In this document: positions 20,647-61,089 of the stretch, in pieces
Position numbering within the stretch: position 1 is the first letter of the stretch
How the letters are laid out: each line of letters opens with the position of its first letter
Assembly (NCBI GenBank): GCA_009192285.1
Contig: CM018603.1
Location: 5,205,613 to 5,269,612, forward strand
Source: Morchella semilibera
Lineage: Eukaryota > Ascomycota > Pezizomycetes > Pezizales > Morchellaceae
DNA: 64,000 bases
Direction: 5' to 3'
Translations under genes and position numbers: made by a program
Notes under the pieces: model-generated
What the model was told of the DNA's origin: nothing
The model's database searches: none
The model's input: only the letters and a program-made list of their open reading frames with translations

Positions 20647-20754
20647 GTGGCTTAGGCCAGGTCTCCTCTCTTTCTTTGTCTGCTTCTGCTGCTTCTGGTG
20701 TCTCTGGTGAGAAGGTCTCGGATAACGATCATCTTGTTGTTTCATGTATTGTAT

Positions 20755-24300: not shown

Positions 24301-24965
24301 GCCCACAAGATACCAAAGCTCTCGTCGAGAAGATGACTGAGATTCACGATCAGTTGCAAGCTGAAATACGCTATGCTCAGGACCGACAGGAGACTAATGC
24401 CAATGTCCACTGAGTTCTCGCCCCCGCTTATAATGTTAGTGACGAGGTATGGTTGAATGCCAGGAATATTCAGACTACTAGGCCATCCCGGAAGCTTGAT
24501 TGGAAACGACTCGGCAGGTTTAAGATCAAGTCGGTTATCAGCTCTTATGCCTATGAACTTGATCTGCCCTCCACCATGAAGATACATCCTGTCTTTCATG
24601 TGTCAAAGCTCGAACCCTGTGCTACGGACCCTCTACCAGGACATATTCCCCCTCCGGCACCACCGGTGATTGTTGATGGTGATGAAGAATGGGAAGTTGA
24701 TGAACTTCTAGATTCTCGTCTGCGTTATTCACGTCTGCAGTATTTGGTTAAGTGGAAGGGCTATGATGCGCCAACCTGGGAGTATGCTGAGAATCTTACC
24801 AATGTTCTCCGTCTGTTGATTCGTTTTCATACGGCATATCCTACCAAGCTGAGACCTGACGGAGTTCTGGCAGAGCTCGAATCTAATGAGAGGGCAACTA
24901 TCACGGCTCCGCCTCCTGCACCTCTTCTTCCGTCAAGGCGTCTTCGGAACAGGGTTATTGGATAG
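21387..24965 (+). pseudogene. pol of the gypsy element (PR-RT-RNaseH-IN-chromodomain), broken
   Basis: Domains in order: protease (about 21390-21740) whose active-site triad reads DTR instead of DTG/DSG; reverse transcriptase (about 22100-22680) with a YLDN motif where YxDD is required; RNase H (about 22890-23200); integrase zinc finger (about 23590-23730) and DDE core (about 23790-24260, with MDFVTGLPES and a SDWGTQF variant); chromodomain (about 24730-24840, QYLVKWKGYDAPTWEYAENL). Breaks: a one-base shift in a C run near 21981-21985 between protease and reverse transcriptase, an in-frame TGA at 23199-23201 in RNase H, another TGA at 24411-24413 after integrase, and the nested LTR. The readable frame ends at 24965 inside the 3' LTR. 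The protein cannot be made from this copy. Confidence 0.92.
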
Positions 24966-37657: not shown

Positions 37658-39432
37658 CTATTTGTCGAGAACGTCGTTAGCAACGTGGAAGTACTCAGTA
37701 GCAGCCTCACGCTTGTCAAGGACATCGTTGGCGACATGGAAGTACTCCTTTGCAGCCTCGCGCTTGTCGAGGACATCGTTAGCGACATGGAAGTACTCCT
37801 TGGCAGCCTCCCTCTTGTCCAAGACGTCGTTGGCGACGTGGAAGTACTCCTTAGCAGCCTCGCGCTTGTCGAGGACATCGTTGGCGACGTGGAAGTACTC
37901 CTTAGCAGCCTCGCGCTTGTCGAGGACATCGTTGGCGACGTGGAAGTACTCCTTGGCTGGCTCGCGCTTGTCGAGGACATCGTTGGCGACATGGAAATAT
38001 TCCTTAGCAGCCTCGCGCTTGTCGAGGACATCATTGGCGACATGGAAGTACTCCTTGGCAGCCTCCCTCTTATCCAGAACATCGTTGGCGACGTGGAAGT
38101 ACTCCTTGGCGGCCTCCCTCTTGTCTAGAACATCGTTGGCGACGTGGAAGTACTCCTTGGCGGCCTCCCTCTTGTCCAGAACATCGTTGGCGACGTGGAA
38201 GTACTCCTTGGCGGCCTCCCTCTTGTCCAGAACATCGTTGGCGACGTGGAAGTACTCCTTGGCGGCCTCCCTCTTGTCCAGAACATCGTTGGCGACGTGG
38301 AAGTACTCCTTGGCTGGCTCGCGCTTGTCCAAGACGTCGTTGGCGACATGGAAATATTCCTTAGCAGCCTCGCGCTTGTCGAGGACATCATTGGCGACGT
38401 GGAAGTACTCCTTAGCAGCCTCCCTCTTGTCCAGAACATCGTTGGCGACGTGGAAGTACTCCTTAGCAGCCTCGCGCTTGTCGAGGACATCATTGGCGAA
38501 ATGGATGTATTCCTTGGCAGGCTCGCGCTTGTCGAGGACATCGTTGGCTACGTGGAAATATTCCTTGGCCGCCTCACGCTTGTCGAGGACATCGTTGGCG
38601 AAGTGGATGTATTCCTTGGCTGGCGCACGCTTGTCGAGGACATCGTTGGCGAAGTGGATGTATTCCTTGGCTGGCTCGCGCTTATCGAGGACATCATTGG
38701 CTACGTGGAAATATTCCTTGGCCGCCTCACGCTTGTCAAGGACATCGTTGGCGAAATGGATGTATTCCTTGGCAGGCTCACGCTTGTCGAGGACATCGTT
38801 GGCGAAATGGATGTATTCCTTGGCTGGCTCACGCTTGTCGAGGACATCGTTGGCTACGTGGAAATATTCTTTGGCCGCCTCACGCTTGTCGAGGACATCG
38901 TTGGCGAAATGGATGTATTCCTTGGCTGGCTCACGCTTGTCGAGGACATCGTTTGCGAAGTGGATGTATTCCTTGGCTGGCTCACGCTTGTCGAGGACAT
39001 CGTTTGCGAAGTGGATGTATTCCTTGGCTGGCTCACGCTTGTCGAGGACATCGTTGGCGAAGTGGATGTATTCCTTGGCTGGCTCACGCTTGTCGAGGAC
39101 ATCGTTGGCTACGTGAAAGTATTCCTTGGCGGCCTCCCTCTTATCCAGGACATCGTTGGCTACGTGGAAATACTCCTTGGCGGCCTCCCTCTTATCCAGG
39201 ACATCGTTGGCTACGTGGAAATACTCCTTGGCGGCCTCCCTCTTATCCAACACATCGTTGGCGACATGGAAGTATTCGGTGGCAGCCTCACGCTTCTCAG
39301 CGGCTTCTATGAACCTGTTAGTTTACTAATATCGAAAACCCCGGAAGGATATGGGGACAAACCAGGAACTGGGAGAGCAAGGACATTGGAGCCGAGGAGG
39401 GCAAGAGCAGCGAGAGAGAGTTGGTAACGCAT
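37658..39432 (-). CDS. Kex2-processed repeat precursor of a predicted dikaritin-type RiPP, 572 aa
   Basis: Two exons. Exon 1 (39432-39363) encodes a signal peptide beginning MRYQLSLAALALLGSNVLA. The intron 39307-39362 (56 bp) has GTTTGT, a CTAAC branch point and TAG. Exon 2 runs 39306-37658. Joining gives PVPEAAEK followed by exactly 32 repeats of 17 residues, consensus REAAKEYFHVANDVLDK, ending LDK-stop. Every junction is Lys-Arg, the cleavage site of the Golgi protease Kex2. Two repeat types exist: EYFHVANDV (23 copies) and EYIHFANDV (9 copies). The first and last repeats have Thr for Lys at position 5. This is the architecture of UstA/PhomA-type RiPP precursors, and the divergent neighbour is an UstYa-like oxidase, the signature enzyme of that class. 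It also resembles alpha-factor-type pheromone precursors, but these lack such a partner. The product is unknown. Confidence 0.9.
37661..39292 (-). repeat. 51-bp coding tandem repeat, 32 copies
   Basis: 32 x 51 = 1632 bp with no indel. Copies are highly similar at the DNA level, with runs of identical neighbours (for example 38109-38280 on the plus strand), pointing to recent homogenisation by unequal exchange or slippage. Because the unit is a multiple of three and lacks stops on both strands, long shadow ORFs appear in other frames. Confidence 0.95.
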
Positions 39433-40814
39433 TTTTGATGATTTGTTGGATTTGAGAAAGCCGGAAACTTCTTGGAGTGAGAAGAGTAGAAAGGATGATT
39501 GTATTGGACTGTTGTGAGGATGTGATTGAGTTGGATGATGGAGACAAAGAAGGCGGGACAAAGGTGGGTTTATATATTCTCTGAACCGAGACTCTCTTGC
39601 CTTGATCACTTGCTGATATCGCGATTTTAGCATTTCCGAGAATATCCCCTCATTGGTAGTGCAGGGGAGCTTCATCCCGCAACCGCTCGCTTCCTGAGAA
39701 GTTGCCGGGGGTGCTGAAAATTGAGTCGACATCTAGTCATCATCTTGGAACCCGTCCATGGTACCGCACACCCCCCTGGTAGTTCACAGAGTCCTCCACT
39801 GTGACCCACTTTGGCATCTGTCAAGGCCACAACCCGTTCAGCCCCCACCACTTCAACTTCTTCACCGAAAACCCGCAGCGTACAATTGTCCCTATCCTGA
39901 CCTCCGGATAATCATACCATCGTTCTCCGACCCTCTAAACATCGTCAAACTAAATCTCCTAGATGAAAACTAATCCCCTACCAACCGTGATACGGCACCT
40001 TCCAAAGCGGATATCTCGTCGGGCATCCTCACTTGTGATGACCCCTCAAGAACCCTTGTGCAACGCATTAATACCTAGTAGTGCTATACATATCTCCCGA
40101 TGAATAATCGTTATACGGCAATTGTCGCAATATCTGTTTTAGACTAGCAAAGGATCGTTAGAATGTTATCGTGGGGCGCTTTTCTTGATAATGCAAGGGT
40201 CCTACCTCCCTACCTCGTATCTTTCGTCGTTTTAAAAGGAATTGATCTTCATACTAGGGGGGTATTTTCTGCTCTGAGAGAGCCAAGTCCCTATTCATTA
40301 TAACAAATCCTACTCTACCTTTGAGAAGAATGAGATTATTGCTACAAAGACTATCCGCACCCTCGTACATATTGTGATTGGTATAATTGATTTTTTGCCA
40401 TTTGTCAAAGACGTTGAGTTACACCGACACCGCCACATCTCAAACTGCATTAGTTACCATTGACCGAGATGTCGTTCCGGGATTCCCGCACCCCCGTATA
40501 TCGGTTATATGCCTGCTGGTTCAATCTATACCACCTGCGGCATATCAACCTCACCTCACCTCATCACCCCCCTCCCCCCCAGCAACTTACATGGTTTCAC
40601 AGCATATTTCGGGACATGGGGCAAATAATCATCCTGCAAGATAATCAAAATACCTCTCAAGCTTTTCACACCACCTTCCTATCATACGATGCCAGGTTAG
40701 GATTACAATATATCAAGACGGCAAGTTTTCCTGGCTCCTCCTCTCTCTCCCTTCTTCCCCCCGAAGGACGCCCTCCTCCCTCTCCACAACCCATTTCTCT
40801 CTGCCATTTTTTGC
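39433..40814. promoter_or_regulatory. Divergent intergenic region between precursor and UstYa-like oxidase
   Basis: 1382 bp without a supported gene. It separates the minus-strand precursor and the plus-strand oxidase and so probably carries both promoters. A pyrimidine-rich stretch (40735-40800), common in fungal core promoters, lies just upstream of the oxidase. No specific operator was identified. Confidence 0.5.
39569..39576 (-). promoter_or_regulatory. TATA-box candidate of the precursor gene
   Basis: On the minus strand the sequence reads AGAATATATAAACCC, about 140 bp upstream of the ATG at 39432. A clean TATA element suggests strong, regulated transcription. Inferred from sequence and position only. 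Confidence 0.45.
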
Positions 40815-42002
40815 ATGTCACCTTTCCCCATCACATTCACGATGTTTCTCACGAAGAAGGGATATCTCCCCATGACCAAGAAGACCGCCGCCTACCGTGA
40901 CGAGTCCGCTGAGCATCTCGTGGGCGAAGAGTCCTCGAGAAGCTCGAGCTCGGAAGAGTTCGTCGTCCAGGAGAAGCGCACTTTGGGCAGCGTCCTACCT
41001 ACCCGCCGGGGACGCATCTTCTTCTTTCTGAATATTGGGCTCTTTTGCGTGTCTTTGATCATTCTTGGGAGCTCTTACAGCTATACATACCGCATGCGGA
41101 ACAATGTTCATAACGCGCTGCTGAAGGGGACCAACTACTATTGTGCGAACACCCTGTTAAACAATCTTCTATTTCCGTACTGACTCATCGGCATAGCTCC
41201 GCTCCTCAATCAAATCGATATCCCACTGTACGATGTCCGAGTTAATGGCTCACTGCTCGATCTGGACGACAACATCTACCGTGCTCCCTCCAGCCCGGAG
41301 GTAGATGCAGCATGGAACCGTATTGCCGACCTCCGACCCGCCTGGGTTACCACAGAAGACGTAATCAAGCTTGGGAAAAGTAGTTCTCACCCCCCCCCCC
41401 GTACCCTCGCAGACCAAACTAATTTACCCCCCTCTTCACATGTAGACCCCAACCTCACTGCCAGATACCCCGATGACTTCGGCCTTGGCCCCGACAAGCA
41501 CATTGCCGAGCTCGACGTCCTCCACCAGATCCATTGCCTCAACGCCATCCGCCGCGACCTCGACTTCGAGTACTACTTCCGCGCCAAATACCCCGACGGG
41601 CAGCTCCCCGAGCTGCACAAAGTGCACACCTCGCACTGCCTATACATCATCCTGCAGCATCTCATGTGCACTGCCTCGACCGACATCGTGACGCAGGCGT
41701 GGGTCGAGGGCCAGACCCACCCCTTCCCCGACTTCAGCATCAACCGCAAGTGCAGGGATTTCAACGCCATCCTAGAGTGGCAGGACAAGAACGTTGTTGA
41801 CCTCGAAAAGTTCAAGGCCTTGAGGAAGCCGGAGGGCCAGGTCCCGGCTAGGATGAGCGACGAGTTCAAGAGGATGTTTGGCGTTGAGGAATGGGACGAC
41901 CACGACCATGGACATGCTGGTGGTGCTGGGGCTGGTGCTGGTGCTGCTGCAGGAGCGCATGGGGAGCATGGGGAGCATGGTGGACATGCTGGTCATAGCT
42001 GA
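40815..42002 (+). CDS. UstYa-like (DUF3328) oxidase with His-rich C-terminal tail, ~355 aa
   Basis: Three exons: 40815-41142, 41197-41379, 41446-42002. Intron 1 (41143-41196) uses GTGCGA, a CTGAC branch point and CATAG; intron 2 (41380-41445) uses GTAGTT and TGTAG. A start at the next ATG (40842) is also possible (346 aa). Layout: ~65-residue cytosolic N-terminus, one membrane segment (about 68-87, IFFFLNIGLFCVSLIILGSS), then the lumenal DUF3328 domain with IDIPLYDVRVNGSLLDLDDN and EVDAAWNRI. Both family motifs are present: HQIHC (197-201) and HTSHC (231-235). These HxxHC motifs define the UstYa family, whose members perform oxidative cyclisation, hydroxylation or desaturation of RiPP core peptides, often at Tyr. 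The last ~35 residues are almost only His, Gly, Ala, Asp and Glu, not a usual feature. Divergent partner of the precursor. Confidence 0.9.
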
Positions 42003-45000
42003 GTTAGTTAGTCGGGTAGTGTAATTTAGCAAAAGGCGTATTTCCTTATCATTATGTTATTATTAGATTAGTAGCAATATTACCCTCAACTCATATGCAT
42101 GCCTATCTCTCCATATGCAGTAAATTAAGCCCCTCCCTCCATATCTAAAACGGTGAAGTCATTTCAAGCAAAGATTACGCTTTCCCTTAGACACTCTATC
42201 CCTCTTCCCAATTAAGCAGCCACTATCCCACGTACCGCCAATCGCAGATAATACACGTCTCCGCAATTCCAAATCCCATGCAAGCCGCCATCTGCTCAGC
42301 ACGCAAGCCCGCCCCCACCCCACCCCACCGCATCAAGAAAGTGCCACACCAAGACAACAGGCCAAGGATGCCTTTTCCATGCACGTTATCTCGCCGATCA
42401 TCCCGAGCGGACCCCTGATCCCTGATCCCTGCCCCTCCCCCAAACCGCCAAGGCTCGTCTCGCTGCAGGTCCGGGGTGTGGCGCATGGGTGCGAATTCTC
42501 CTATTGGCCCGGGGGTGGGCGGGTGGTGGCGCCCGAGTTGTTCCGTGGCTACATGTAGCTAGCTAGCACGTACAGTCAGATGGGAAGGTGGCCCCCCGGG
42601 GGTAACTCTAGAAGCAGATCTTGCTTAATCTACCGCTCGGAGAGATATGGGAAGGCGGTTTAATTCTGCAGAGATTGTGTGATGACCTAGGACTTGGTCG
42701 CCATCGTTCATCCCCCCCCCCCCAATCCAATTGACGGCCGTGGTGGCGGTGGGCGCCTCTCCCTGAACGTTTGGTGGGGGTTGCAGAGAAAACCGCCCGC
42801 CCCCATGCACGGGGTAGGCCGTACTGCGATATCTATCTATCTAACGCTTACATGTACTTACTTACCTGCCCCATCCATCCATCCGTCCATCCGTCCTTCT
42901 ATTGTAATACTAGCTATCGATCCCTCAGTGGGTGTTTCTAAATAAGCTCCATATATATCCTTTGTATGCTGAGTATGCACCCCGGGGGTGATGCAATTGA
43001 ACCCTGGTGTCGCGACCGCCATCTAAGCCATACCCAACCTTTGCATTTCTATTTTTCATGTATGTATGTAACTGTTTATCACACGGCTCCTGTCTCTATC
43101 TGGCGCAATTCGATCTATAGAAACTATTTTCAGCCTTTAGGCGTGGTGGCCAAAATCGCGGTTCTTTCTCGCCGTTGCATCACCTTGAGGACCCCCGGCC
43201 GGCCCAGGGGGTGGATGCAACGACTCACGACCTCAACCACATGCGACCCAATTGTAACCCTAATGAGGCAACATATATCGTATACAGAGTAAAGAATTCA
43301 TCAATCATATTCAGATACAAGAAATCAAGGGGGCGGCTGTGAACCTACTAAGGCCTTGATCACGGTACCTATAATAGTGTAATCCCAAATTAAACCGTAG
43401 CACCACTTTTAGGACCATACATGTTTCAGTAGATGGTATTGTAATGATGATTAACTCGGATGGTGGCCATGGGGGTTGGAGGGATTACTGTGGTGTTGGT
43501 CTGGATGGTGAATCTGTGGTGGCGAGATGGTAATTGATGTTGGGCTGCTAGCAGGGCTCCGTCACCGGGTATCACTCGATATCAACATCTCTTACACTAC
43601 TCGGGTCAGGTAATAAGTGGAAATGAAGCGGTGTAGTTTTTTTACTAGTAGTAGCGAGTCAGAGGTTGTAGTACACGCTGTTCTACCGCACCACACTGTG
43701 ACCCACACAATCCCGACCCCAGCGCACCAGCCACACAACAACCCCCGACCCAGCAAATTACCCCGCATACCGCAGCACCCCAGGGTGTGTACGAGGTTTA
43801 ATTCGTTTAATTCAGTGTGTGTGCTCAAACACCGGTAAAGATATATAGCAGATCGATGTAATCAGAGTGCTGGGCTCCTTCTATATTTTACCGAACCTTG
43901 GCGCCCTCCTCCTTCCTATGAGAGCGGGACCGGGGGTGTGCATGTAGCCCCCCCCCCCCCGAGATGAGGATGAGATGATGTCTGACCGCGCGCGCAGTTG
44001 AAACATGTGCTTCTGGCTCGCTTGGCCTGGAGAGGGAAGGTCTACTACTCTGGGGGTTGGCCGTTCCAGCGGTTGGCTTCTGGCCCTGGTTGGTGCTTGG
44101 TTAATTTACTCCATCTTACTTAGATTATAAGCTTTCGAGGTGGTTCTGTGCGGAGACAACTGTCGACACTACCTAGGTCAGCCGTCAAATCAGTATTACA
44201 TATGGCGCAGGTAAGCCTGGACTGTATTGGCTGTGATTGCATATCGTAGGAATGTTACAGGGTAGCTAGCCACATGTAGTAAGCCATTAGTTGGCAGCCA
44301 AAAAGCTAATCGTCATAGGTCAAGCACACATTGCAAGTAATCACGGGCGCTGATTACACGTGTAGGTAGTAATTAATTAATAACGAACGAATGAAGCTTT
44401 ATCAAATACTCGCGCGGTCAGCAGCGGATTGATTTTAGCCACACACCCTGGGTAGCTTGCCAAGGAGTATTATTCCCGATAGGGGGTTAGCGCGTAATGT
44501 GCCCCTCCCCCCCCCAACCCCAACCCCAGGTCGGTGCGGTTCCGGGTTAACGTGAGATTGAGATGTGAGTAGGTGTGTGGAATGTAGATTAATGAGGCAG
44601 CCCTCATTGTGGTGATTTGAATTAAAGAGGAGGGAGAGGAGAGATTCCCCTGCGTTGTGTCAGCACCCTAAACAGACCTCGGTTTGATGCTTGTAATTAT
44701 GTACATTACTCGACAACACACTGTATCGCGAGAATTAATAAATAATTACAACTACCTGTACTACATGTAGCTAGCCTGGCGGACCCTGGGAGGCTATAGT
44801 AATACCGACCTTCCAACTGCCAGTCGGATGAATTGCAGACGATAGCACTGCGGATGATTCGGATGGCTGAACACTAACGCGTTGATAAGCATTACACTAG
44901 TCACGACCACTCACTCCACTACGGGCGATCAACGGTCTCTTAACCTTCATTAGGTATGAGACAAGGCCGTGCGGTGTGTGATTACCGCCACAAAAACGCC

Positions 45001-45754
45001 AACCGAGAGTCACTGTCACTGTCACTTCTGACACAGTTGCAAGTCCAGGGGTTCAGATAGTCTCTTCTCAGGGCACGGGGGGGGGGGGTGCGTTAAAAAA
45101 AGATTACAGTCATTCAACCGTGTCGGTCAGACACAAACCACCGGTCTAGCCAACGGGTTCACCACCGTTGCCAAGGGCACCCCCGACCGACGGCCCCCAC
45201 GACACGGGAGTGGCTGAAAATAAGCTCCTCGTCTGGATAAACCGTCGCTCGGCAGGGTCCGGGGTGGTTGTGAGATTGGCCACATAGCCCACCCAGCCAG
45301 GCCGAGAACCGGAGGAGGGCGATAATCACCCCGTGGATTACCTACATCCTTTCCGTCAGCGAATAAGATAGTGGCAAAATACCGCCATTACTCTGTGAAA
45401 TGTGAGAAACAAAATTGCCATAAGCAGACCCTCCAGCCAATCGTGGTGGAGGGGATGGGCCAATTTTTTGCTCAGGCTGACGGGGACACAGCCAGCCCCC
45501 GCGCCGGCCCGAGCTCGGATAGTTCGGGTGCACGGGTCCCGATGCGGTCGGGTGCATGCATATGTTAGTGTGGTGTGGTGGTGTGTTGTGGCTACTCTTG
45601 GCGATCGGCAGGACAGGGGTCAAAGATGGAAGGTGGGCACTATCTTGGTACTCTACGCTAGATGCCGCATCGGCGGTGGGGGCGGCGTGTGGGGTCATGG
45701 GGGTATCACGCTGGTGCGGCGATGCGGTGTCGGTGTCGGTGTTGTCTTTTTTTT

Positions 45755-45787
<33 letters not shown>

Positions 45788-46412
45788 GGACGGCGGCGAG
45801 GGCGTGGGTGTTTGTTGGTCCGTCTCTACTGCGATTGTTGCTTGGTTATTGCTGTGTTGCCAGGTCGTGGTGGGAGGAAGTTTGTAAATTATAAAAAAAA
45901 GACTCAAAAAAAAAGTTTCAAGATGGCTACCTAAAGACATTATAGTCCAGACCCCGTTACTAGAGAGTTTTTCGTCGCTATTCGGTATCAATGGCTTTAG
46001 CGAGCCCTGCGTATACATTTATCGCCATTGTTTCTTTAATTCAAAGGGATTGATGAATTGACAACAACAATCTCGTTCGTGACCCCCGAAAGTCGAGTGA
46101 GAACTCATGATTTAAAGGTTCACACATTCTTTATCTATACTTCATACATGCATGCAGCCCTCAGGCTATGGCAACTAAAGGTTCACACATCCTGCTAACT
46201 AAACACTTTTAAAATGGCCGTGTTGTATTCCTGGCAATTGGATGCTAAATGTTTGGGGAATTGCTTGATAGGTGTCGAGGGGGCTTGTTTTCACGAGTTG
46301 CCTTGATGGATTCACTACTCGGAATAGAAAACTGGCTTGAATTTATTTATTGACAACACATACGTACAAGTAGCTACATGAACCAAGACTGAACAAACAG
46401 ACCCACACAACT
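42003..46412. other. Intergenic, no gene recognised
   Basis: About 4.4 kb within the cluster without a supported gene. It holds several homopolymer runs (poly-C near 42712 and 43950, poly-G near 45080, poly-T near 45755-45785) and CATC/CGTC microsatellites near 42870-42900. The frame at 45342-45887 is low-complexity in all readings and is not supported. Confidence 0.5.
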
Positions 46413-48054
46413 CTACTCTCTCCCCGCTCTCTCCTCCTCCGCCTCCTCCCCCTCCACTCTTGAATACCCGCCCTCCGCCTCGCCACCCCCGACCCTCACC
46501 TGCATCACCACCGCCCCCACAAGCGCAAACAGCGCCGCCGCCACCGCAAACGGCAACCCGACCCAGCCACCGCCCCACCTCGCCCCGACCCCAAAACACA
46601 GCCCCAGCGCCGGCCCCGCCACAAGCCCACCAACCATATCCGCCACCGCAATCGCCGTGTACAGCCTCCCCACCTCGCTGCGCTCCACCATCCCCGTCAC
46701 CAGACTGCGCGCCGCAGCGCCAAACCCGCTGCCGGCGGTATAGACGCCCAGGCCGGCGACCATTATCGCGGCGCCGGGGGCGACCGCGACGAGGGCGAAG
46801 CCGGCAGTCATCAGGAGGATGGACACGCGCGCGATGGCGAGGTCCTTTTTGGCAGAGGACATGCCGAGGCGGGAGAGGAGGAGCTGGCCGGTGACGGGGA
46901 GAATGATGAGCAGGAGGATGAGGTTGATGAACGCGCGGAGCGAGAACAGGATGTTCGCCTTCTGGATCGGCCAGCCGTAACGGCTCGACACGTACTGGAG
47001 CAGCAGCTCGAGGGCCTGCCGTCCGATGGTGGCAATCAGGAACGTAAATACCAGTAGCGCTGTGTTCCAGTCCGCCATGAGGAAGCTTAGAACGGCCTTG
47101 TAATCGCCCTCCTTCTTCGTCGGCTGTGCCTCCTCGTCGTCGTCGCCGTCGGAGGTTGCGTCGGGGGCGGCGGTCTTGGTCTCCGGTAACATGGCGGCGA
47201 TGGGGATGCCGATGGTTTGGATGACGAGGCCGGCAAGGAGCGGGATCCAGACGTTGCGGCCCATGAGGAGGGAGCCGATGAGGGGAGCGACGAGCTCAGA
47301 GAGGAGGACACAGGCTTGCAGGTGGAAGAAAAGGGTACTGCGTTGGGCGGCGGGGGTCACATCGGCAATGATCATGAGGATGAGGGCGGAGCCGACAGAG
47401 GAGCCGCCGCCAAGCGTGTAGAAGAAAGAGGAGAGCCAGGTGAGTTTAATGGGGAGGTCAAACCAGCCTAGAGTTTGTTAGTGAGTGCGGAGAGGGGCGG
47501 GTGGGGCGGGAGGGGGGCATACAAATCAGTAGAACCCAGGCAGAAGAGAGGGAAAGACCCAGTAGGGTGAGCATTAGCATTGGCCGGCGGCCATAGCGGT
47601 CAGCGAGAACTCCGAAGGGGATAGCAAGAATGACACCTACACACAGGTCAGCAACTATTTATCCATGGCCGCAGAATATAAATACAGGAAGCTTACCCGG
47701 AATATTCGAAAACAACGTTTGCATGCCGTTCAGCATCGCAATCTCGCTCTGTACGCTCTCAATCTTGCACAAATCCTCGGGCACGCTTCCGTCCAGCCCT
47801 ATTTTGAGGGGGTCATGCTCTCGGTAGTAGGCGAGGCATATGATCGACTCAAAGAGGCGGACCTGCGGGGCCGAGCTGAGGTAGCCCGCCATGTCCACCG
47901 TTACAATGATGACGAAGCATAGCAGCGTTGCACGGAATTGTGTACTTGTCAGGAGGCGCTGGAGGATTGTGCGGAGAGAGCTGAGTGTGGGGAGGGAGCG
48001 GGCGGGACTGAAGGGGGGGAGATCCTCGGCCATGGTGGGGGGGTGGACGGTCAT
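46413..48054 (-). CDS. Major facilitator superfamily transporter, ~508 aa
   Basis: Three exons: 48054-47697, 47636-47523, 47467-46413. Introns 47637-47696 (GTAAGC...TAG, with CTGAC) and 47468-47522 (GTATGC...CTAACAAACTCTAG) keep the frame. The first exon holds one membrane segment (FRATLLCFVIIVTVDMAGYL) and a hydrophilic loop. The second carries MFS motif A, GVLADRYGRRP. The third gives the remaining membrane helices (LTWLSSFFYTLGGGSSVGSA, VWIPLLAGLVIQTIGIPIAA, IMVAGLGVYTAGSGFGAAAR), a charged central loop with ETKTAAPDATSDGDDDEEAQ, and a charged C-terminus. Length suits a 12-helix drug:H+ antiporter-like protein. MFS exporters are standard in fungal metabolite clusters. Here it is divergent from the methyltransferase and probably exports the finished peptide or provides self-protection (inference). 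Confidence 0.87.
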
Positions 48055-48751
48055 GATTGTGGTGGGGGTTGAGTGTGTCTGTCTGTCTGTCCGTGTAGAG
48101 AGAGCAGAGAGATGAGGAAGGTGAAGGGAGAAGAGGAGGGGGACGTTCCGGTGAGCTTGAGCTTGAGCTGTACCATTGTCATCATCGTCGTCGTTGTCGT
48201 CGTCGTAACTGTTGTTCCTATCATTAATCCCGGCTATCGTGTTGCATGGATTATCATTGGCTTGGTTGAATTATCGCTGACTGAGACAATAGAATTGCAG
48301 GGGGTTTACTAATTAAGGCTGCATTAGGGAGGTCTACTATTTGATTAGTATGCCGAGGGCGCTCACGAAGACAACTCCCCAATCACGGGTAAAAACACAG
48401 AGTGGCTGGAAATTGAAGGATTATTGTCATCATCACTGCCGATGACTCCCGTGAAGAATATCCTCCCCCCCCCCCCAGTAAATCATCGTGGTGTAAAAAT
48501 AGTTACCCCAGGCTCTTCTTCAAGCGCCGAGCCCCCCCCGGGAAAACCCCCACTTCACACCGCAACGTCCAAATCCAGCCTTCACGAAAACAGGAAGGTC
48601 ACACACCCTCCCATCGCGCATCAATAGAAAGCTCGTGCGAAAGCCCTCAAGTCATCTAGTAAACCACTCCTCACACCGCACTGACTGACTGCACCGCACT
48701 GACTGCACTCCCAATTTTCTCTATTCATTTCCAAAAACTCAATTCTCCACG
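48055..48751. promoter_or_regulatory. Divergent intergenic region between MFS and methyltransferase genes
   Basis: 697 bp, no gene seen. Contains TCTG and GACTG/CACTG short repeats and a poly-C run near 48467. Likely holds both promoters. Confidence 0.45.
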
Positions 48752-49750
48752 ATGCTCATCCCCGTTGCATTGACCTCCGCAACTCACGATGCCGCCGCCG
48801 CCCCTATGGCCGACGACGAGATTCTCTCCCTCCTGGCCCAGAGCTACTTGCACAATCCGAAGCACCTGAACACCTTCGTGATTCCCCAGTTCCGCCACCG
48901 CCTCACCCTCATGTCCAAATTCAACATCCCCGCCGGCTCCCGCATCCTCGAGCTCGGCTGCGGCCAAGGCGAGACCACGCTGGTGCTAGCGCACCTCGTC
49001 GGCCCCACAGGCCACGTTACCGGCGTTGACCCAGCCCGGCCTGACTACGGCCACCCCATCACAGTGGCCGCTGCCCGAAACCATATCCTCGCTTCCCCGC
49101 TTGGGTCACGCACTACCTTCCATGCCATGAACCCACTCGACTATCTCAAGGCGCTTCCTGAGGGGCATAACTTCGACTTCATCATCCTCTCCCACAGCTT
49201 GTGGTACTTTCCATCGCACGAGGCGATCCTCGAGACCCTCGCCGCGATCGGCCCCTATGCGCCCCGCTTATTGGTTGCCGAGTACAACTTTGGTTACACA
49301 ATCCCTGAGCAGAAACCGCACGTCCTGGCCGCAAGATGTCAGGCCGTGTTCTACAAGGCCAAGACCGCCGAGCAGCGGGCGGCGACGGAGCCAAATGTGC
49401 GCACTGCGCCCGAGGTGGATGAGGTTCGAGAGCTAGCGGCAAAGTCAGGATGGAAGCCGGTAGAGGGGAGGGAGGGAATTGTCACACCGGTCGAGGAGGT
49501 GCTGGATGGCCAGTGGGAGGTAACCTGGGTGTGTTTCTATAGCCAGTTCTGGGATGAGGTGGAGAGTGTATTAGGTAGTGAGGATGAGAGAAAGTTGGAG
49601 GTGAAGAAGGAGGTGGCGAGGTTAAAGCAGGAGACTAGGCAAGCCTTGGATGAGGTGAATATGAAGAGGGACCCGGAAGTTATGGATGAGATGGATGTCA
49701 GTCGGTGTAGGACGATGGATGTGTGGTGGGCAGAGTTTGAGAGGGCGTAG
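48752..49750 (+). CDS. Class I SAM-dependent methyltransferase, 332 aa
   Basis: Single-exon gene with the Rossmann motif I ILELGCGQGETTLVLAHL (about residues 66-83), motif II acidic turn GVDPARPDYG, and motif IV region NFDFIILSHSLWYFPSHEAI. The C-terminal part is acidic/charged and helical. No signal peptide or membrane segment, so it is expected to be cytosolic. It could methylate the peptide or a side chain, as PhomM does in the phomopsin pathway, but nothing in the sequence fixes the substrate; the sequence does not resemble LaeA-like proteins. It shares a 697-bp divergent promoter region with the MFS gene, supporting joint regulation. Confidence 0.85.
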   Translation: MLIPVALTSATHDAAAAPMADDEILSLLAQSYLHNPKHLNTFVIPQFRHRLTLMSKFNIPAGSRILELGCGQGETTLVLAHLVGPTGHVTGVDPARPDYGHPITVAAARNHILASPLGSRTTFHAMNPLDYLKALPEGHNFDFIILSHSLWYFPSHEAILETLAAIGPYAPRLLVAEYNFGYTIPEQKPHVLAARCQAVFYKAKTAEQRAATEPNVRTAPEVDEVRELAAKSGWKPVEGREGIVTPVEEVLDGQWEVTWVCFYSQFWDEVESVLGSEDERKLEVKKEVARLKQETRQALDEVNMKRDPEVMDEMDVSRCRTMDVWWAEFERA

Positions 49751-52700: not shown

Positions 52701-53339
52701 CAGCCTTGTCGCAGTTTTACGTCGGTGTATTCATTGGCCTGTCTTGCGAGGGGAAAGGGCTTGGGGTATGGCTGCTCCGTCGTCCGCGCACGTAGATAGC
52801 TAGGGGGCGCTGGATACCCCCCCCCCCCCCCAGAAAAAAAAAAGAAAGGAAAAGAAAAAGAAAAAGAGAAAGAAAAAGAAAAAGAAAAAGAAAAAGAAAA
52901 AGAGAAAGAAAAATAAGGAAAGGAAAGGAAAGGAAGTTCGAAATGAAAAAAGCGGGGGCTAGGGGGGGGGGAGGTAAAGGTGAGAATATGAGGTCTATAG
53001 AAATATAGGGATAAGAGTGCGGGATAAAAATATAACAATAGAAGTGTAAAGTGTAAACTATAAGATAAAGGAAAAAGAAAGTAAAAGGGAAAATAAAAAT
53101 AAAAAGAAAAAACCATGGCAAGCAATACAACTAGACAGTGGAACCGGAGCATAAACAGAACCCGCCAGCCGGGCAGGACATGGCCAGTGAAGGAACCGTA
53201 CGGACCATGCTCGGGGATCTGTAATGGGAGGTACATGCTGAACACACGACTTCTTTCTCTCCCGTACGCACAGCCTCCCTCAGTGATCATTACTTAACGC
53301 AAAATTATCATTACCAACATCTAAATACACAAGTCAACA
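49751..53339. other. Intergenic, no gene recognised
   Basis: About 3.6 kb. The frames at 51420-51932 (minus) and 52649-53290 (minus) are low-complexity and unsupported. Includes CCCTAACCCT-type words near 51290 and 51446, a 15-G run near 51230 and a poly-T run near 52150. Confidence 0.5.
52836..52935 (+). repeat. Polypurine (AAAAAG)n microsatellite
   Basis: About 100 bp made only of A and G apart from a single T, mainly GAAAAA units grading into GGAAA units. It follows a 14-C run. Confidence 0.9.
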
Positions 53340-56300
53340 TCAAAGCCCACCCCCTGTGCCCTCCCCATCATCCACGACCCTCCCCGCGTCCATGACCACA
53401 ACCCTCCCATACCCCTCCAGCCCGCCCCGATGGACAACACTGACCACCGTCCACCCGTCAAACTCCTCCCTGACCACCCGCTCCATGACCCTCCCCGTGC
53501 GCACATCAACACTACTCATCGCCTCATCAAGCACCAACACGCCGCCCACGGCCCGCCGCCTCCTGACCCTCGCCGCGACCACCGCCCTCCCCAGCCCCAC
53601 CATCTGCCTCTGCCCAACACTCAACCTGCCCACATCCACCTCCGCGGGCAGCCCCACGCGCGCCATCACCTCCGCCACCTCCTCATCCCCAAGACACCCC
53701 GCAGGGTCCAGATTCGCCCGCACCCCCCCAGGAAGGAAGTAACACTCCTGCGGGACGACGGTGAGCGCGCTGCGCACCGCCCCGCGCGCCACACACCCCA
53801 CGTCAACACCGTCGATGAGGATCTCGCCGCTCTGCACGTCGAGCAGCCGCGTCAGTGCCCCCAGGAGGGTACTCTTTCCGCTTCCGCTGGGGCCGCGGAC
53901 GGCGACGCGCTCGCCCGCGCGGATGCGCAGCGTCACGCCGTCCAGCGCGCGCGGGCCCCCGTCGGTGTAGGATGCTGTTACGGCGCGGAACTCGATCTCG
54001 CCGCGGGCGGGCCAGCCGGGTGGTGCCCCCGCCCCCTCGGCGGGGGAGTCGGTCTCCTGCGGCGTGCGCTGAGAGAAGGATTGCAGGCGGGCGATGGCGC
54101 CCAGGGAGGTCTCGAGGGAGGTGTAGGATACGACCAGGTTCTTGAGGGTTTCGCCGAGGGTGGTGATGTTTGTTAGTGCTAGGCCTACGGCGCTGGCGCT
54201 GAGGACGCCGGCGTTGGAGCGGCCGCCGAGGGCCACGGCGACGGCGATGACGACGACGGCTAGGCCTGCTACGATTAGGTCGAGGACGAGGTTGAGCCAC
54301 ACTTGCACGGCGTACATGAGGTAGACTGCGTTCTGGGAGGTGTCGAGGTGGGTTGTGAGGGTGGTGGTGAGGAAGGAGGGGGTGGCGGGGTTGCTGCGGA
54401 TTGTGGCGAGGCCGAGCGTGGTGGAGGTGAAGAGGGTGTAGAGGGGGGATTTCAGCGAGATGTCGAGGAGGCGGAGGCGCTTCGAGGTGCGCAGGTAGGT
54501 GTGTTGCAGGAGGGAGGTGGTGAACAGGATCGGGGGGAAGGTGCATAGGATGAAGGGGGAGGCAGCGGCGATGAGTGCGAGTTGGGTGAGGAATGTGAAG
54601 AGTTCTGTGTAGGGTTTGTTAGTGGTTGTGGGGTTGAGGGTAGTTATACAGGGAGGGGGGAGGTACCAGCGGCGGTGTTGAGTAGTGATAATGGCAGTGT
54701 GCCATCCACGAGCAGCATATCTTGACTGAACCTGCAGACCGTCAGTATATAAAACCATTACCGAGAGCGAATCAAATACCTATTCGTAGTCACCCCCGTG
54801 TCCACACGACTGATGTATGCAAACGGCGCACTAACCACCAGTTAGCCCTTGATCCCCCACCAAATGGGAAAGAAAAAACCTACTTCATGACCGTCCGCAA
54901 CAGCTCCCTGTGCAGATTCCGTCCCGACGATGCAGCAACGCCGTGGAAGAGATGCCTGTGTCGCAGTGTCAGTGAGTGAGGATGTGAGACAGAGATGGAG
55001 AGGAGGAGAACGTACCAGGCCCAGGCGCAGAGAGAGACGAAGGCGAGGACGTTGAACATTGCGTAGATGCCGAGGTAATATCCGATTCGCTGGTTTGGGT
55101 GCGAGGCGTTTGCGTTTGACCACCAGGTGAGCCATTGGTCTGCGGTGGGATTTTGTTAGCATGGGGAGAAGAAGGGGAAAAAGGAAGTAACATCAACCCA
55201 CCCGGAAACTTCAGCAAAACCCCAAAACACACGCCCCCCACCAGAAAGCAAACCGTGTTCACCCTCCCAATCGACCTGAAATAATACCTATACACATCTC
55301 TATCCCTCGCACTATCGTCCTCCTCCTCCCCCTCCTCTCCCTCTCCGCCCTCCCGCCCACCTCCCGACACCACCGCCTTCTCCTCCTCCCTCTCCTCATC
55401 GACAATGTCCTCGACGTCGCCTGCACCGCTGCCCGACAGAAGACTACTCAGATACCCCCCGCGGCCAACACCTCCGCCGTCGGCCCCTGCTCCACGATCC
55501 GCCCGTCGGCGCCGAACGCAATTACTTCGTCCGCATAGCGGAGATATCCAACTGTAGTGTACCCGTCAGTATGATACTTCATTTACTACCCGCCACCAAG
55601 AGAAGAGACGAACCGCCATGGGTGGCAAAGACCACCGTGGTCCCCAACCGCCGCAAGAGACCGTCCGCCCCCCACAGCCGCTCAAGGATCAAATCGAGCG
55701 TCTTCCGGTCCAGCCCCGAGAACACGTCGTCGAGCAACAGGACCGGCCTCCTGGAATATATCGCCCTCGCCAGGGCCTGTTATAGTCAGCATCAACCACA
55801 TCCTCGCTCGTACAAGCCACTTACAACTCTCTGCCTCTGCCCCCCGCTCAGCCCAACCCCGCCGCTGCCAACACTGACCAAATCACTAATCTCAGGCGCA
55901 TCAATGCCGCACGCCCGCACCACCGCGCGATACCACTCCTCGTCGTCCTCCCCGGGCCCCACCACGTTCGCGCGAACACCCGCATTCACCAGCCAGGGCG
56001 TCTGGTCGCAATACGCCATCGCGCCGCCGCCGACGCTCCCGGCCAGCAGCGGCACCTCGCCCAGCAGCCCCTTCAGGAACACGCTCTTCCCGCACCCGAC
56101 GGGGCCCAGCACCATCACCGTCTTTCCGCTCTCCACCCGCACCTCCACGCCGCTTATCACCGGCTTCGCCGCGTCCCACCCGAACGCCCCGCCGCGCACC
56201 GTCACCGCTGCTCCTTCCCCCCCCTCGCCCTCCCGCTTCTCCAGCTCCGCAATACATAGGAACGCCTGGATCCGCCCCGCGCACGCCCACGCCGCACTCA

Positions 56301-58152
56301 GCGCCGGCAGCGCCTGGAACAGGTGCACCAGCGGCGCAGCCAACAGCCCAATGACCGTAAGACTGGTGAACAGCCTGGCTGCATCCAGCGTCTCGCCGCG
56401 GCCCCCCGCCGCCGCAACACCCATGAACGCGCCAAACACCACAACAGGGCTGAAGATGAGCGTCGCGTACGACAGCCCCACGCTCACAACGATGGAGCTC
56501 CTGAAGCCGCCCGCCGCGGACACCTCGTTATCGCGGAGCCCCTGCAGCAGCGTACTCACCGCGGGCTCGAGGTTCAGGAGCTTGATTGCCTTGAGGGATG
56601 CGAGGGTCGCGGCCGTGGTCGTCACGCGGTGCTGCAGCGCCGCCATCCACGCCCCTTGCAGGCGCGCGGAGCGGGCGGCAACGAGCGTGGAGAGGAACAC
56701 GCACAGGAGGGCCAGCGCGACCATGGACAGGGAGGAGAGCCCGACCTGGCGGGTGAGCAGGTAGATGGCGAGGATGGCTTCGAGCGTGTTGGCCCACGGC
56801 TCGTGGACGTATTTGAGACCGCTGAGGATGCGCTCGGTGTCGGTGGACATGAGCGTGAGCGCGCTGTTTGCGTCGGGTGTTGGGGGGGGAGGTTTTGCGG
56901 TTGAGGTTGTGGACGCGGCGGAGGAGGAGACGTCGGAGGCTTTTTCGTCGGTGGCGGGCTGGTCCTCGGTCGAGGCGGGCTTCTCTTTCTCGCTGGGGGA
57001 AGGGGAGGACACACCGCCGGCGGGCATGGGTACGAGTAGTAACTTCTCCCAGACAAGCCCCACGAGCCCCCCCCGCACCGCGACCATCATCCGGTACGTC
57101 ATCCAATTATACCACGCCGTAGACCCCTAAACTAAATCAGCACCCTCCAAGCACAAACACCACACAAAAAACTCACCGCAATCCCGCAATACACAAGCGC
57201 ATACGCCGCCATCAGCGCCCAGCCAACCTCCCCCCTCTCCCTCTCCCCAACACTCTGCAAATACCCCATGACCCTCGCGACCAAGAACGGCTGCGCAAAC
57301 GTGAACCCCACCATTGCGAGCCTCGGGATCACCGGCGCCGCCAGCGGCCGCCACAGCCCCACAGCAGCACAAACCAGCAGCGGGCGGCGCGGCGTCCACG
57401 CGCCGCGCACGGCCGCAACAGTCCCACGCGTCTCCAGCGGCGCCGGCAGCGCCGGTAGCATCCCCGCCGTCAGCGGGGTCCGGTATCCGCGCGCCAGCAG
57501 CGGAAGCAGCCACGTCATCAGTGTCAGCCCGAGCGGGGAGGCCGTCTGTTCCCCCCGAGCCCTGGCACGGCGGGGGGGAAGGACTCGAGGAGGAGCAGGA
57601 GGACGGAGGTTGCGGTTGTGGCCGCGAGGAGCGAGGGCTGCAGCGGCGGGTAGGAGAGGAAGAGGGTGCGTGTTTGGGCGGCGGTGAAGACCGGCGTTAT
57701 GAGGTGGTAGGTGGTGAGGAGGGGGTCGGGGCGGGGGGTGCGCGTGGCGGCGAGGATGCTCAGCGCCGGGTGGAGGAGCGTGGGCAGGAGGCGCAGCACA
57801 GCGGAGGCCGTGGACACCCTGGTCGGTGGGTTTGTGGCCGTCACGGCGAGGAATGAGAGCTGGAGGGCGAAATGGACGAGTAGCGTCGCCTACACGGTGT
57901 TAGCATTGTGTCATCCCCGCACACATATAGAGTACGTACCCCCCTCGCCCACCACCCCCACCACCGCCGCTCCAGCGGCCGGCTCTTTTTCCGCAGCAGC
58001 AGGTACAGCCGCGGCGCAGCAAGGAGGATGAAGAGGCCTGCGGGCAGCATGGCGAGCAGCGTCTCGCTGAACAGGAGTGTGAAGTCGAATGTCCGCCGGC
58101 AGGGCGCGGCGGCGGGGCCAAAGGCGTCGTCGAGGCTGGGGGGGCAGGACAT
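53340..58152 (-). CDS. ABCC-type (MRP-like) full ABC transporter, multi-exon, with two apparent frameshifts
   Basis: Starts at 58152 with MSCPPSLDDAFGPAAAP and FDFTLLFSETLLAML, the TMD0 start typical of fungal ABCC proteins. Then TMD1 (about 57130-56400); NBD1 with Walker A GPVGCGKSV (about 56085-56110), signature LSGGQRQR (about 55835), Walker B VLLLDD (about 55735); a linker; TMD2 (about 55160-54300, including DQWLTWWSNANASHPNQRIG); and NBD2 with Walker A GPSGSGKST (about 53870-53895), signature LSVGQRQM, Walker B VLVLDEA; stop at 53340. At least seven short introns fit (for example 57892-57938, GTACGT...GTGTAG). Two places need one extra base to keep the frame, both in six-base C/G runs: 57551-57556 and 55455-55460. 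ABCC proteins export large or conjugated molecules at plasma membrane or vacuole. Divergent from the peptidase gene, so likely cluster-specific export or vacuolar storage. Confidence 0.85.
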
Positions 58153-58896
58153 GTTTTTTGGGTTTTTGTAAGTTGGGGGTGGGAGGAGGGGGGGGGGGGA
58201 TTATATGTGAGGGTGGGTGAGGTTAGAGGGGCGGATTGGAGGGTGGGTGGTGTGCATGTGGCTTCTGTAATTGGGTATTGTAGATATATCTGCTTATTAG
58301 GTAGTTAGATAGCTTCATAATGTTGTGATTTAATATTTTTACTCTTTTCCCTTCCTCCTTTCCTTTCTTCTTTCTCTTCCTTTAATTTCACGCCCTCCCT
58401 TCTCCCATCTCCAGCTAACTATCACAAAAAAAACCCCCATCTTCAGTATGTACAATATTCTACCCAGGCCTCCACCCTCTCCCACCATACCATCATCCGC
58501 TATCATTACCACCGCCACACCACACCTGCTCTCGCACCTTCCCCGGGGCGTGCAAGCTCCCGCGCCGATCGCACGCTGCCGGAATAGGAAGGCGGCACAT
58601 TCCCTGCCGGTCGCCGGCCCCCACACACACCCCGGCTAAGTGATCAGTAATCCGGACAGATAAGCTGGCGGTGTGGATTGTGTGCAGGGGCTCTGAGTCG
58701 AGTGACGGGTGAATGGATGGGGGAGTGTAAGAGGAGGAGGGCTACAGCTGGGGGTGCTTTTTTTATTTCTTGGGGGGGGGGGGTGACGGAGGTGCTGGTG
58801 AAAGCTGTCTAGATCACACCTCACACTTGACCCTCACCGCCCAGCTATATAGCAGTATACCTCTACGCCTACACACCCACCCACCCACAGAACGCA
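58153..58896. promoter_or_regulatory. Divergent intergenic region between ABC transporter and M3 peptidase genes
   Basis: 744 bp with no gene. C/T-rich around 58330-58500 and CACCCACCCACC just before the peptidase ATG. Likely holds both promoters. Confidence 0.45.
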
Positions 58897-61089
58897 ATGT
58901 CTCGCCTCCCCTTCCTCTGGCCATCGGCCATCCTGCTCCTGATCCTCATCACCACCTTCAGCATCCTGCACATCTTCCTCTCGCTGCCCATCCCGCAGCC
59001 CGCGCGCCCCCCCGCCGACCATGACGACCACGCAGACACCACCAGCACCCGCCGCATCCCCCCACAGGCACCATACACGTTCCCGCCCTCCGCAGCAGCC
59101 GTACACGCCGCCATCGCCGCCTCCTCCGCGGTACTAGACCACCTCTCCACGCTCACCCCCGCCGACGCAACCGTCGACACCGTGCTCCTGCCGCTAGCCG
59201 CAACAGAGGCGTCACTAACGGGGCTCCTCAACACGCTCACGATCCTCTCCCTCGCCTCCCCAACCGACGAGGTCCTCTCCCTCCTCACCCAGCTGAACGA
59301 GCACCAGCTGCGCACCTCCGCGCACGCCTCCCTCCCACGCCTCTTCTCCGCCCTCCACGACAACACCACAACCGACACGGACCCGGAAACCGCCCGCTAC
59401 ATCACCGCGCTGCACACCTCCCTCCTCGACGCGGGCGCCGCGCTCCCAGCCGAGCAGCAAGCCCGCCTCGAGCGCCTCCAGGAGCACATGTCGAACCTGA
59501 CAGCCACCTTCCAGAACAACCTCATCACCGCGACGGCCTCCCTCCCCGTGGCAGCCCTGAACATGAGCGGCGTTCCGCCCTCCGCGTACCCGTCGGGAGT
59601 GATAGAGCTGACGCCGCGCAGCGTGGGCGCGGTGCTCAGCACCGCGCTCGACCCGCGCACGCGGCGCACCGTGTGGGCCGCCGCCGAGAACAGCGTGCCA
59701 GAGAACGTCCCCGTGTTTCAGGAGCTGGTTGGGGCGCGCCACGAGGCCGCCGCGATCCTGGGCTACGAGGGGTGGGCTGACATGCGGCTGGGGGGCGGGC
59801 GGCTGGTGCCCGACGCGGAGTTTGTGGGCGGGTTCTTGGCGGAGGTTCGGGATGCGTTGAGGCCTGTTGGGGTCGCGGAGGCGGCGGAGATGGCGGCCGC
59901 GATTGGGAGCACGCCCGCCGAGTATGGGTTGTGGGATAAGCGGTTTGCGGAGCGGGCCAGGGAGAGGACGGAGGGGAGTGGGATGGTGTTTGTGGTGGAG
60001 GAGGTGCTGGAGCGGGTGTTGGGCGTCGTGGGGGGCGTGTTTGGGTTGGTGTTTGAGGGCCCGCTGACGGGCGAGGAGTGGGCGGCGATGAGGGGTGTCA
60101 AGACCGCCAAGAACGCCGCCGGCACGGGGGGAGAGTCGGCGTGGGACGACGTGAGGGACGGCGAAGACGCGGTGAAGGGCGGAATGGCATGGCACGAAGA
60201 CGTAAAACTCTTTGCAGTCTGGGACGCGCCACCCCCCCACCAGAAAAGACACGGCGACGAACACCCGGCCCCGAATTTCATCGGATACCTCTACCTCGAC
60301 CTCCTCTCCCGCCCCACCAAAACCTCCCAAGCCGGCAACCTCAACATCGTCCCGGGCTACCACCACCCCCCCCGCCCGCGCCACCACCCCTCCACCGCAA
60401 TCCTCACAACCTTCCCCGCCACCGGCCGCCTCTCCCACACAGACCTAACCGTCCTCTTCCACGAGCTCGGCCACGCCGTCCACGACCTCGTCTCCCACAC
60501 GCGCTTCGCGCGCCACCACGGCCCCCCCGGCGTCCCCGTCGACTTCGCAGAGGTACCCAGCCGCCTCGCCGAGGAGTTCGCGTGGGACGCCGACGTCCTC
60601 GTCTCGCTGGGCGCCGACGCGGCCCACGCGCGCGCCGTGGTCGCCGCGCGCTGGGAGGGCGCCGCACTCGCCGCCCTGCGGGGCGTCCACATTGCTGCGT
60701 TCGACATGGCCGTCCATGGGCGCGCGCCGCCGCGCAGCGCCGACGAGACGGGCGCGCTGTATAACCGGTTGCGCGGGAGGTGATTCCTGTTGTTGGCGGG
60801 GGGCGCGGGGAGCGGCTGGACGGGTATGCGGCGTTTGGGCATCTGGCGGCGGGGTACGACGCGGGGTATTATGGCTATCTGGTTAGTAGTTGCTGGGCGG
60901 CGGATGTGTGGGGGGTTTTTGAGGCGGAGGGGTGGGCGGCGGTGGGGGGGCAGGTGGAGGGCGGTGTTGGAGGGTGGGGGCGTGGGGGGCGTGGGGGGGT
61001 TGGTGAGGGAGTTCTTGGCAGGGGGGCGGGGTGTGGTGTGTTTTATGGGCGGTTGGGGTGGGGGCCCAGGGGGCGTAGACTTTGTATAG
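58897..61089 (+). CDS. M3-family zinc oligopeptidase with N-terminal membrane anchor (apparent 3' frameshifts)
   Basis: The main frame (58897-60783) gives 628 residues. Residues ~4-31 form a strong signal anchor (LPFLWPSAILLLILITTFSI), unlike the soluble thimet oligopeptidases of this family. The helical N-domain is followed by FIGYLYLDLL, then the zinc site LFHELGHAVHDL (HExxH at 522-526) and third ligand E552 in DFAEVPSRLAEEF. The frame stops early at 60781-60783, but the sequence continues one frame over as typical M3 C-terminus (VIPVVGGGRGERLDGYAAFG, YYGYLVSSCWAADVWGVFEA), so one base seems missing in the G run at 60774-60779; a second shift in G runs near 60970-61000 is likely before VREFLAGG. 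The end at 61089 is therefore provisional. Phomopsin clusters also carry an oligopeptidase (PhomG). The anchor would place this one in the secretory path where Kex2-cut repeats appear. Confidence 0.82.

Follow-up and report, generated by a model that had tools for sequence, protein, structure and literature searches.

We analysed a 64,000-nt stretch of the genome of the morel Morchella semilibera (contig CM018603.1, positions 5,205,613 to 5,269,612; hereafter the window, in whose coordinates features are given) and found in it a gene whose secreted product consists of repeats bounded by sites for the protease Kex2, next to a gene for an oxidase of the UstYa family (DUF3328). We consider it likely that this pair is a dikaritin-type locus for a ribosomally synthesized and post-translationally modified peptide (RiPP), and that through it the morel produces a modified peptide not yet described, along a type of route already known. 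By definition, dikaritins derive from Kex2-repeat precursors and are cyclised by homologues of UstYa (PMC10512285); a Kex2-repeat precursor adjoining the only UstYa gene found therefore fits what defines such a locus. The original prediction for this region went further and proposed a six-gene dikaritin cluster of 23.4 kb that also includes an M3 oligopeptidase, a methyltransferase, and MFS and ABCC transporters. Its centre, the precursor beside the only UstYa found, stands, whereas a pathway role for the other four genes is unproven.

The precursor gene occupies 37658-39432 on the minus strand. Exon 1 (39363-39432) holds the start codon and a probable secretion signal (MRYQLSLAALALLGSNVLA-LPVP), and is separated by a 56-bp GT...AG intron (39307-39362), which preserves the frame in the predicted gene model, from exon 2 (37658-39306), which carries the repeat array (37658-39289, 32 units of 51 bp). 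Spliced together, the exons encode a single protein in frame, in which a hydrophobic N-terminus is followed by the brief segment LPVPEAAEKR and then by 32 units, each of 17 residues and closing with KR; the signal peptide is assigned from hydrophobicity alone. The stop codon forms the end of the last unit, which finishes in DK-stop. Tandem Repeats Finder independently located 32.0 copies of 51 bp at the array. The gene thus combines a probable secretion signal with repeated cores between dibasic Kex2 sites, the two features by which a dikaritin precursor is recognised.

Comparison of the units with one another indicates which frame is translated. In the coding frame, the proportions of synonymous and nonsynonymous differences among the 32 units are pS = 0.54 and pN = 0.057 (pN/pS = 0.10), as against pN/pS of 2.3 and 42 in the remaining sense frames and 2.9, 0.16, and 25 in the antisense frames, the single low antisense value arising because third positions coincide. 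The precursor peptide is strongly constrained, beyond chance. Together with the two-exon model, the KR-bounded units and the independent repeat call, this ratio bears out the Kex2-bounded, 32-repeat secreted precursor that had been predicted. We rejected coding on the plus strand across the array, where open frames reach 518 aa, given its pN/pS of 0.16 versus 0.10 and no signal-like start being seen. Pfam matches of a six-unit query to LysM2, DUF1699, TfoX_N, and DUF3263 were likewise set aside as repeat artefacts below the curated cut-offs.

Nineteen of the units read EAAKEYFHVANDVLD, eight EPAKEYIHFANDVLD, two EPAKEYFHVANDVLD, and one APAKEYIHFANDVLD, while the first and the last begin EAAT. 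Only positions 1, 2, 4, 7, and 9 vary, if the stop that closes the last unit is disregarded. Glu occupies position 1 in 31 units and Ala in one; at position 2, 21 units have Ala and 11 have Pro. All 32 units begin, right after the Kex2 site, with an X-Ala or X-Pro dipeptide. This is the signature of Ste13, whose substrates are such dipeptides following a Kex2 site (PMC6339444). Positions 7 and 9 vary together, giving Y-F-H-V in 23/32 units and Y-I-H-F in 9/32, within an invariant frame of Tyr, His at Tyr+2, and ANDVLD; Trp and Cys are absent from the units. Because the units are tandem duplicates, this two-way variation possibly reflects one old event, and the covariation on its own therefore carries little statistical weight.

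From these features, products of 15 residues would be expected after Kex2 and Kex1 cleavage and of 13 residues after Ste13 trimming. The predicted 13-residue peptides, AKEY(F/I)H(V/F)ANDVLD, are AKEYFHVANDVLD from 21 units, AKEYIHFANDVLD from nine, and ATEYFHVANDVLD from two (the C-terminal K being kept in the last unit). The calculated [M+H]+ of AKEYFHVANDVLD is 1520.738 in linear form, 1518.722 at -2 H, and 1516.707 at -4 H; the corresponding values for AKEYIHFANDVLD are 1534.754, 1532.738, and 1530.722, and a YFHV fragment would give 565.277, or 563.261 at -2 H. The ustiloxin precursor is thought to yield peptides of similar size, 13-14 residues, on cutting (PMC6514808). The prediction had named YFHVANDV and YIHFANDV as cores; the Tyr-containing repeats are retained, but the X-Ala/X-Pro start moves the predicted core to a 13-residue intermediate whose YxHx sequence lacks the Ile that is cross-linked in known YxIx cores.

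The UstYa-family gene lies on the plus strand at 40842-42002 and encodes 346 aa in three exons (introns 41143-41196 and 41380-41445), with an alternative upstream ATG at 40815. Its product covers positions 9-220 of the 220 in PF11807 (E = 1e-52) and carries two HxxHC motifs on the same strand, HQIHC at 41523-41537 (H188, H191, C192) and HTSHC at 41625-41639 (H222, H225, C226). The His and Cys residues of both are invariant in 28/28 sequences of an alignment of the window protein with 27 relatives chosen from 71 matches, and in 43/43 of a second set chosen from those 71. The presence of a UstYa-like protein with both motifs, as predicted, is well supported by these matches. It is 89% identical over 91% of its length to its orthologue in Morchella importuna, LAJ45_05170. 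The AlphaFold2 model of this orthologue (mean predicted local distance difference test score, pLDDT, 80.7; 203/346 residues at 90 or above) has one long N-terminal helix, and the corresponding segment of the window protein is hydrophobic. A sequence search for solved relatives gave none at E <= 1, and a Foldseek search with the fold gave nothing at E <= 0.001 among 97 PDB matches or 178 BFVD matches; with no similar solved structure, the fold adds no mechanism. The C-terminus (residues ~310-346) forms a His-rich, Gly/Ala-rich tail (DHDHGHAGG...HGEHGEHGGHAGHS), modelled with low confidence in the orthologue and present in shorter versions in several distant relatives, which is possibly metal-binding.

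The two genes stand head to head across a 1.4-kb divergent intergenic region. Searching the 56.76-Mb, 23-contig assembly returned a single UstYa match, the precursor's neighbour, a count that should be read as at least one, as only candidates from a loose first screen were scored. If one such gene were placed at random among ~10,240, the chance of this adjacency would be ~2e-4. A UstYa/DUF3328 gene with two HxxHC motifs close to the precursor is the second element by which dikaritin loci are defined (PMC10512285, PMC12048977), and it is found here. In a survey of 7878 Kex2-repeat genes, 22% (1758) had a UstYa gene within 15 genes, mostly next door, and Tyr occurred in 65.6% of repeats with a UstYa neighbour versus 38.2% of those without (PMC7329392).

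Among described systems, the nearest plan to that of the morel locus is the asperipin-2a locus of Aspergillus flavus (aprA, aprY, aprT, and aprR), which likewise has one UstYa, a repeat precursor, and a transporter, and no tyrosinase (PMC6514808, PMC12048977). The two differ in several respects. No peptidase gene is described for asperipin-2a, whereas an M3 peptidase and a methyltransferase lie near the morel pair; the asperipin-2a core, FYYTGY, has three Tyr and its locus an isoflavone-reductase gene, whereas the morel unit has one Tyr in a YxHx context and no reductase appeared among the open reading frames (ORFs) tested. Like the ustiloxin B and phomopsin clusters, whose precursors have 16 and 8 repeats, the morel locus combines a signal peptide and KR-bounded repeats with UstYa; those clusters also hold a methyltransferase (PMC6514808), for which the morel has a candidate nearby. 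The unit also resembles their cores, YAIG, YVIG, and YVIP (PMC7329392), in that Tyr and Tyr+2 are invariant and Tyr+1 and Tyr+3 variable. Those cores, however, have Ile at Tyr+2, and their clusters hold two and five UstYa genes and a tyrosinase, where the morel has His and one UstYa. Clusters related to ustiloxin and phomopsin carry S41 peptidases (PMC6514808), and none was matched in the morel window.

Several observations weigh against assigning the locus to the dikaritins. The YxIx core of the ustiloxin/phomopsin subtype is replaced throughout by YxHx, an invariant His standing in for Ile. Two markers from the original set of Ding et al., as quoted in PMC12048977, were not found, namely tyrosinase and multiple UstYa (DUF3328) genes; for the third, a methyltransferase with transporters or peptidases, candidate genes do lie within the 23.4 kb. 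The M3 gene changes frame, away from any homopolymer of six or more. Profile searches of the genome gave at least 28 tyrosinase matches (the nearest on contig C1 at ~5597 kb, ~330 kb off) and at least four for S41 peptidase, and none of either in the window; these searches, with that for UstYa, uphold the earlier remark that no tyrosinase, S41 peptidase, or second UstYa is visible there. When a protein database was searched with a shortened precursor (signal, units 1 to 17, and final unit), no relative reached E <= 0.001 in the 7996 candidates scored; relatives with a different core may have been out of reach. In Ascomycota, the Ste13 signature is described as generally confined to alpha-pheromones (PMC6339444). 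Finally, as far as the published accounts available go, antiSMASH runs on M. sextelata name no RiPP, neither among the 12 clusters of an antiSMASH 8 run (PMC13208314) nor among the 10 of an early run, four of them typed 'other' (PMC6814724).

The last point is tempered by how such calls are made. Fungal RiPPs are called by antiSMASH where a peptidase lies next to a marker, for example DUF3328 (PMC12048977), and a locus with M3 as its only peptidase may therefore escape such calls. Other morel reports bear on the question less directly: the available text of PMC10868677 gives no antiSMASH analysis, and PMC10455484 lists 12 clusters in M. importuna, with no types given in the text available; it does name one fungal-RiPP cluster, in Sphaerosporella brunnea, which also belongs to the Pezizomycetes. 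Earlier automatic RiPP calls in morels may exist. Among the papers listed by our searches of the openly licensed literature, we found no published morel RiPP cluster or locus of this kind.

We then considered whether the pathway is confined to the precursor and UstYa, with the methyltransferase, MFS, ABCC, and M3 genes as bystanders, a reading that is compatible with a dikaritin locus and that we regard as a serious possibility, if somewhat short of probable. At the gene density of M. sextelata (52.93 Mb, 9,550 genes, one gene per ~5.5 kb; PMC6814724), ~4.2 genes would be expected in 23.4 kb versus the six of the proposed cluster, and the row is broken between 42002 and 46413 (4.4 kb) and between 49750 and 53340 (3.6 kb). 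The gene neighbourhood as such is not unusual. A further ten ORFs, selected from the window's ORF lists, were searched against Pfam: eight had no match, one matched DUF5870 below its cut-off (E 0.087), and one encodes a MYND finger at 33.5 kb, outside the proposed cluster. The statement that these 23 kb hold no unrelated supported gene is correct for the ORFs tested; with density near average, however, it is weak evidence for a cluster. The asperipin-2a locus, too, is described as having four genes only, with one UstYa (PMC6514808).

The M3 gene speaks against a purely bystander role. It lies on the plus strand at 58897-61094 and encodes a hydrophobic N-terminal segment, and its nearest solved structures in the PDB are thimet oligopeptidase and neurolysin, enzymes known for cutting only short peptides. 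Grouped by position, seven matches in the genome resolve into three M3 loci, this one included, and an extra, apparently membrane-anchored enzyme of this type would be a plausible trimmer; the chance of any of three M3 loci falling within five genes is ~0.3%, a post hoc figure. Its family is assigned by Pfam (main piece, PF01432 E = 7.6e-43; C-terminal piece, E = 1.7e-5, 24.8 bits against a cut-off of 27), but it does not lie in a single open frame, as frame 1 runs to a stop at 60781 and the gene continues in frame 3 from ~60774. In tblastn, three homologues of 745-750 aa, including those of M. snyderi and M. sextelata, and a 624-aa homologue from M. conica all align in frame 1 and then in frame 3 from 60774. 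The frame-1 alignments end at 60840 or 60867, beyond the frame-1 stop and overlapping frame 3, and the frame-3 stretch continues stop-free at 62.5-63.5% with the three long homologues to 61058. The change is either a genuine lesion or an error in the assembly. A second change suspected by eye at ~60943 was dismissed, frame 3 being kept to 61058. In a protein search that scored 7994 candidates and listed matches at E <= 1e-30, identities were 61% to M. snyderi DFP73DRAFT_613457, 63% to M. sextelata H6S33_008177, and 53% to M. conica. The UstYa and M3 homologues in other morels were never both traced to one named genome.

The remaining three neighbours are candidate pathway members. The MFS transporter (46413-48054, minus strand; 508 aa; introns 47637-47696 and 47468-47522; MFS_1 E = 4.3e-20) and the class I S-adenosylmethionine (SAM)-dependent methyltransferase (48752-49750, plus strand, one open frame; Methyltransf_23 E = 1.1e-9) are both of the family first proposed. 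The best PDB match of the methyltransferase is 3bkx (E = 6.2e-36), titled only SAM-dependent methyltransferase. The ABCC/MRP-type ATP-binding cassette (ABC) transporter (53340-58152, minus strand) comes in several pieces. ABC_tran is matched in two of them, ABC_membrane is matched below its cut-off, and the best PDB matches are ABCC3, MRP1, and ABCC2; the family thus agrees with the prediction. The gene shows apparent frame changes near G-runs at ~57.56 and ~55.46 kb (judged by eye). On the other side of the presumed cluster, the left flank contains a gypsy-type retroelement at 19132-24965 (gag, reverse transcriptase, RNase H, integrase, and chromodomain) and a DDE-superfamily transposase at 3708-5315, placing the cluster at the border of a repeat-rich, lower-GC region.

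Alternatively, the precursor could encode a linear signalling peptide, perhaps an alpha-type pheromone or a pheromone-like Kex2-repeat protein, on which UstYa does not act. Like alpha-pheromone precursors and other Kex2-repeat proteins with the STE13 signature, every unit has KR followed by X-Ala or X-Pro. The genome encodes a Ste2 receptor (E 1.1e-61), and no other alpha-pheromone gene emerged from our searches: the four matches to MF_alpha were short (E 1.3 to 7.2), a single one exceeding the cut-off, and then only with same-frame neighbours added; the ORF list of its locus has no KR-repeat protein. The motif W-C-x3-G-Q-x-C had three scattered matches in the genome versus four for a reversed control. 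Taken together, the Ste13 signature, the Ste2 receptor, and the lack of another pheromone gene in these searches leave a linear pheromone-like peptide a real probability. Nevertheless, we consider it unlikely. The units have neither the Trp nor the Cys of a pheromone-like peptide quoted for comparison, their 32 copies exceed the one to 16 quoted for alpha-pheromones (PMC6339444), and the sole UstYa found adjoins the precursor, whereas UstYa genes almost never lie beside pheromone genes, with three exceptions (PMC7329392). The available text of a paper on morel mating-type strains (PMC13300869) contains nothing on a morel pheromone precursor.

A less likely possibility still, and one we rate as distinctly improbable, is that the locus is decaying and yields no product, the M3 frame change and the pieces of the ABC gene being true lesions. 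The switch shared by all four M3 homologue alignments, with no run of six or more at the change, is consistent with decay, as is the presence elsewhere in the genome of decayed arrays of the same repeat family. Those arrays emerged from six-frame scans with the repeat unit as template, set against shuffled controls. A 4.0-kb piece of contig C5 (495500-499500) contains eight unit-like stretches (shuffles: mean 0.15, max 1, n = 20), and 3.5-kb pieces at 29500-33000 of C22 and of C21 contain 14 each (shuffles: mean 0, max 0, and mean 0.2, max 1, respectively). None was found in a 10-kb piece right of the cluster (shuffles: mean 0.45, max 2) or in the window outside the array (1-37500 and 39501-64000). 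The stretches on C5, C21, and C22 switch frames, and stops fall within matches on C21 and C22 but within none on C5; because of the frame-jumping and the stops, they look like decayed arrays of the precursor repeat family. Conservation of Tyr, Phe, and His in these relics is no evidence for the core, as the template favours those residues.

Among the arrays found, however, that of the window is the only intact one, and the precursor, UstYa, MFS, and methyltransferase genes are all open. M3, too, still aligns stop-free past its frame change, as would be expected of a recent lesion or of an error in the assembly. At 99.97% identity and ~31 kb from their contig starts, the C21 and C22 pieces look like a duplicated segment from a contig end. 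Weaker matches to the repeat family occur at C17:449856-450230 (E 0.013) and C1:5294825-5295013 (E 0.1), the latter ~25 kb beyond the right end of the window. A structural role, with peptides assembling on the cell surface like those of Ustilago maydis Rep1, which form amyloid-like fibrils (PMC9769878), would account for many copies of one short unit but is very improbable given the adjacent UstYa and a charged, polar unit with Ste13-type sites.

If the precursor and UstYa do form a dikaritin locus, a route can be proposed from known activities. Kex2 would cut after every KR in the Golgi and Kex1 would take off the KR, after which a Ste13-type dipeptidyl aminopeptidase would strip the leading EA, EP, or AP to leave the 13-mers; the genome contains a Kex2-type match and dipeptidyl-peptidase IV-type matches. 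The membrane-anchored UstYa would then oxidise the peptide, likeliest at the invariant Tyr, and the membrane-anchored thimet/neurolysin-type M3 may cut the 13-mers down to the final core. The product may also be exported by either transporter (MFS or ABCC) and methylated by the class I enzyme, both steps being unproven. A more specific version, which we put forward as doubtful, is that UstYa joins Tyr to the invariant His at +2 in YFHV and YIHF, giving a Tyr-His macrocycle from a precursor trimmed by the alpha-pheromone (Ste13) route. Such a linkage would differ from those of ustiloxin, phomopsin, and asperipin as described in PMC6514808. If true, it would represent a product class without report for morels in the openly licensed literature searched and would widen the range of UstYa chemistry.

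The kind of locus described here is known, whereas its morel member is new, with a chemistry predicted from sequence. A review from 2022 put the number of reported dikaritins at only five (PMC10512285). To these the locus adds a candidate from a genus of mushrooms that are widely eaten, and its predicted peptides have exact masses by which to look for them. No agent is, to our knowledge, established for the illness that raw morels can cause, and the predicted peptides could be checked against that illness.

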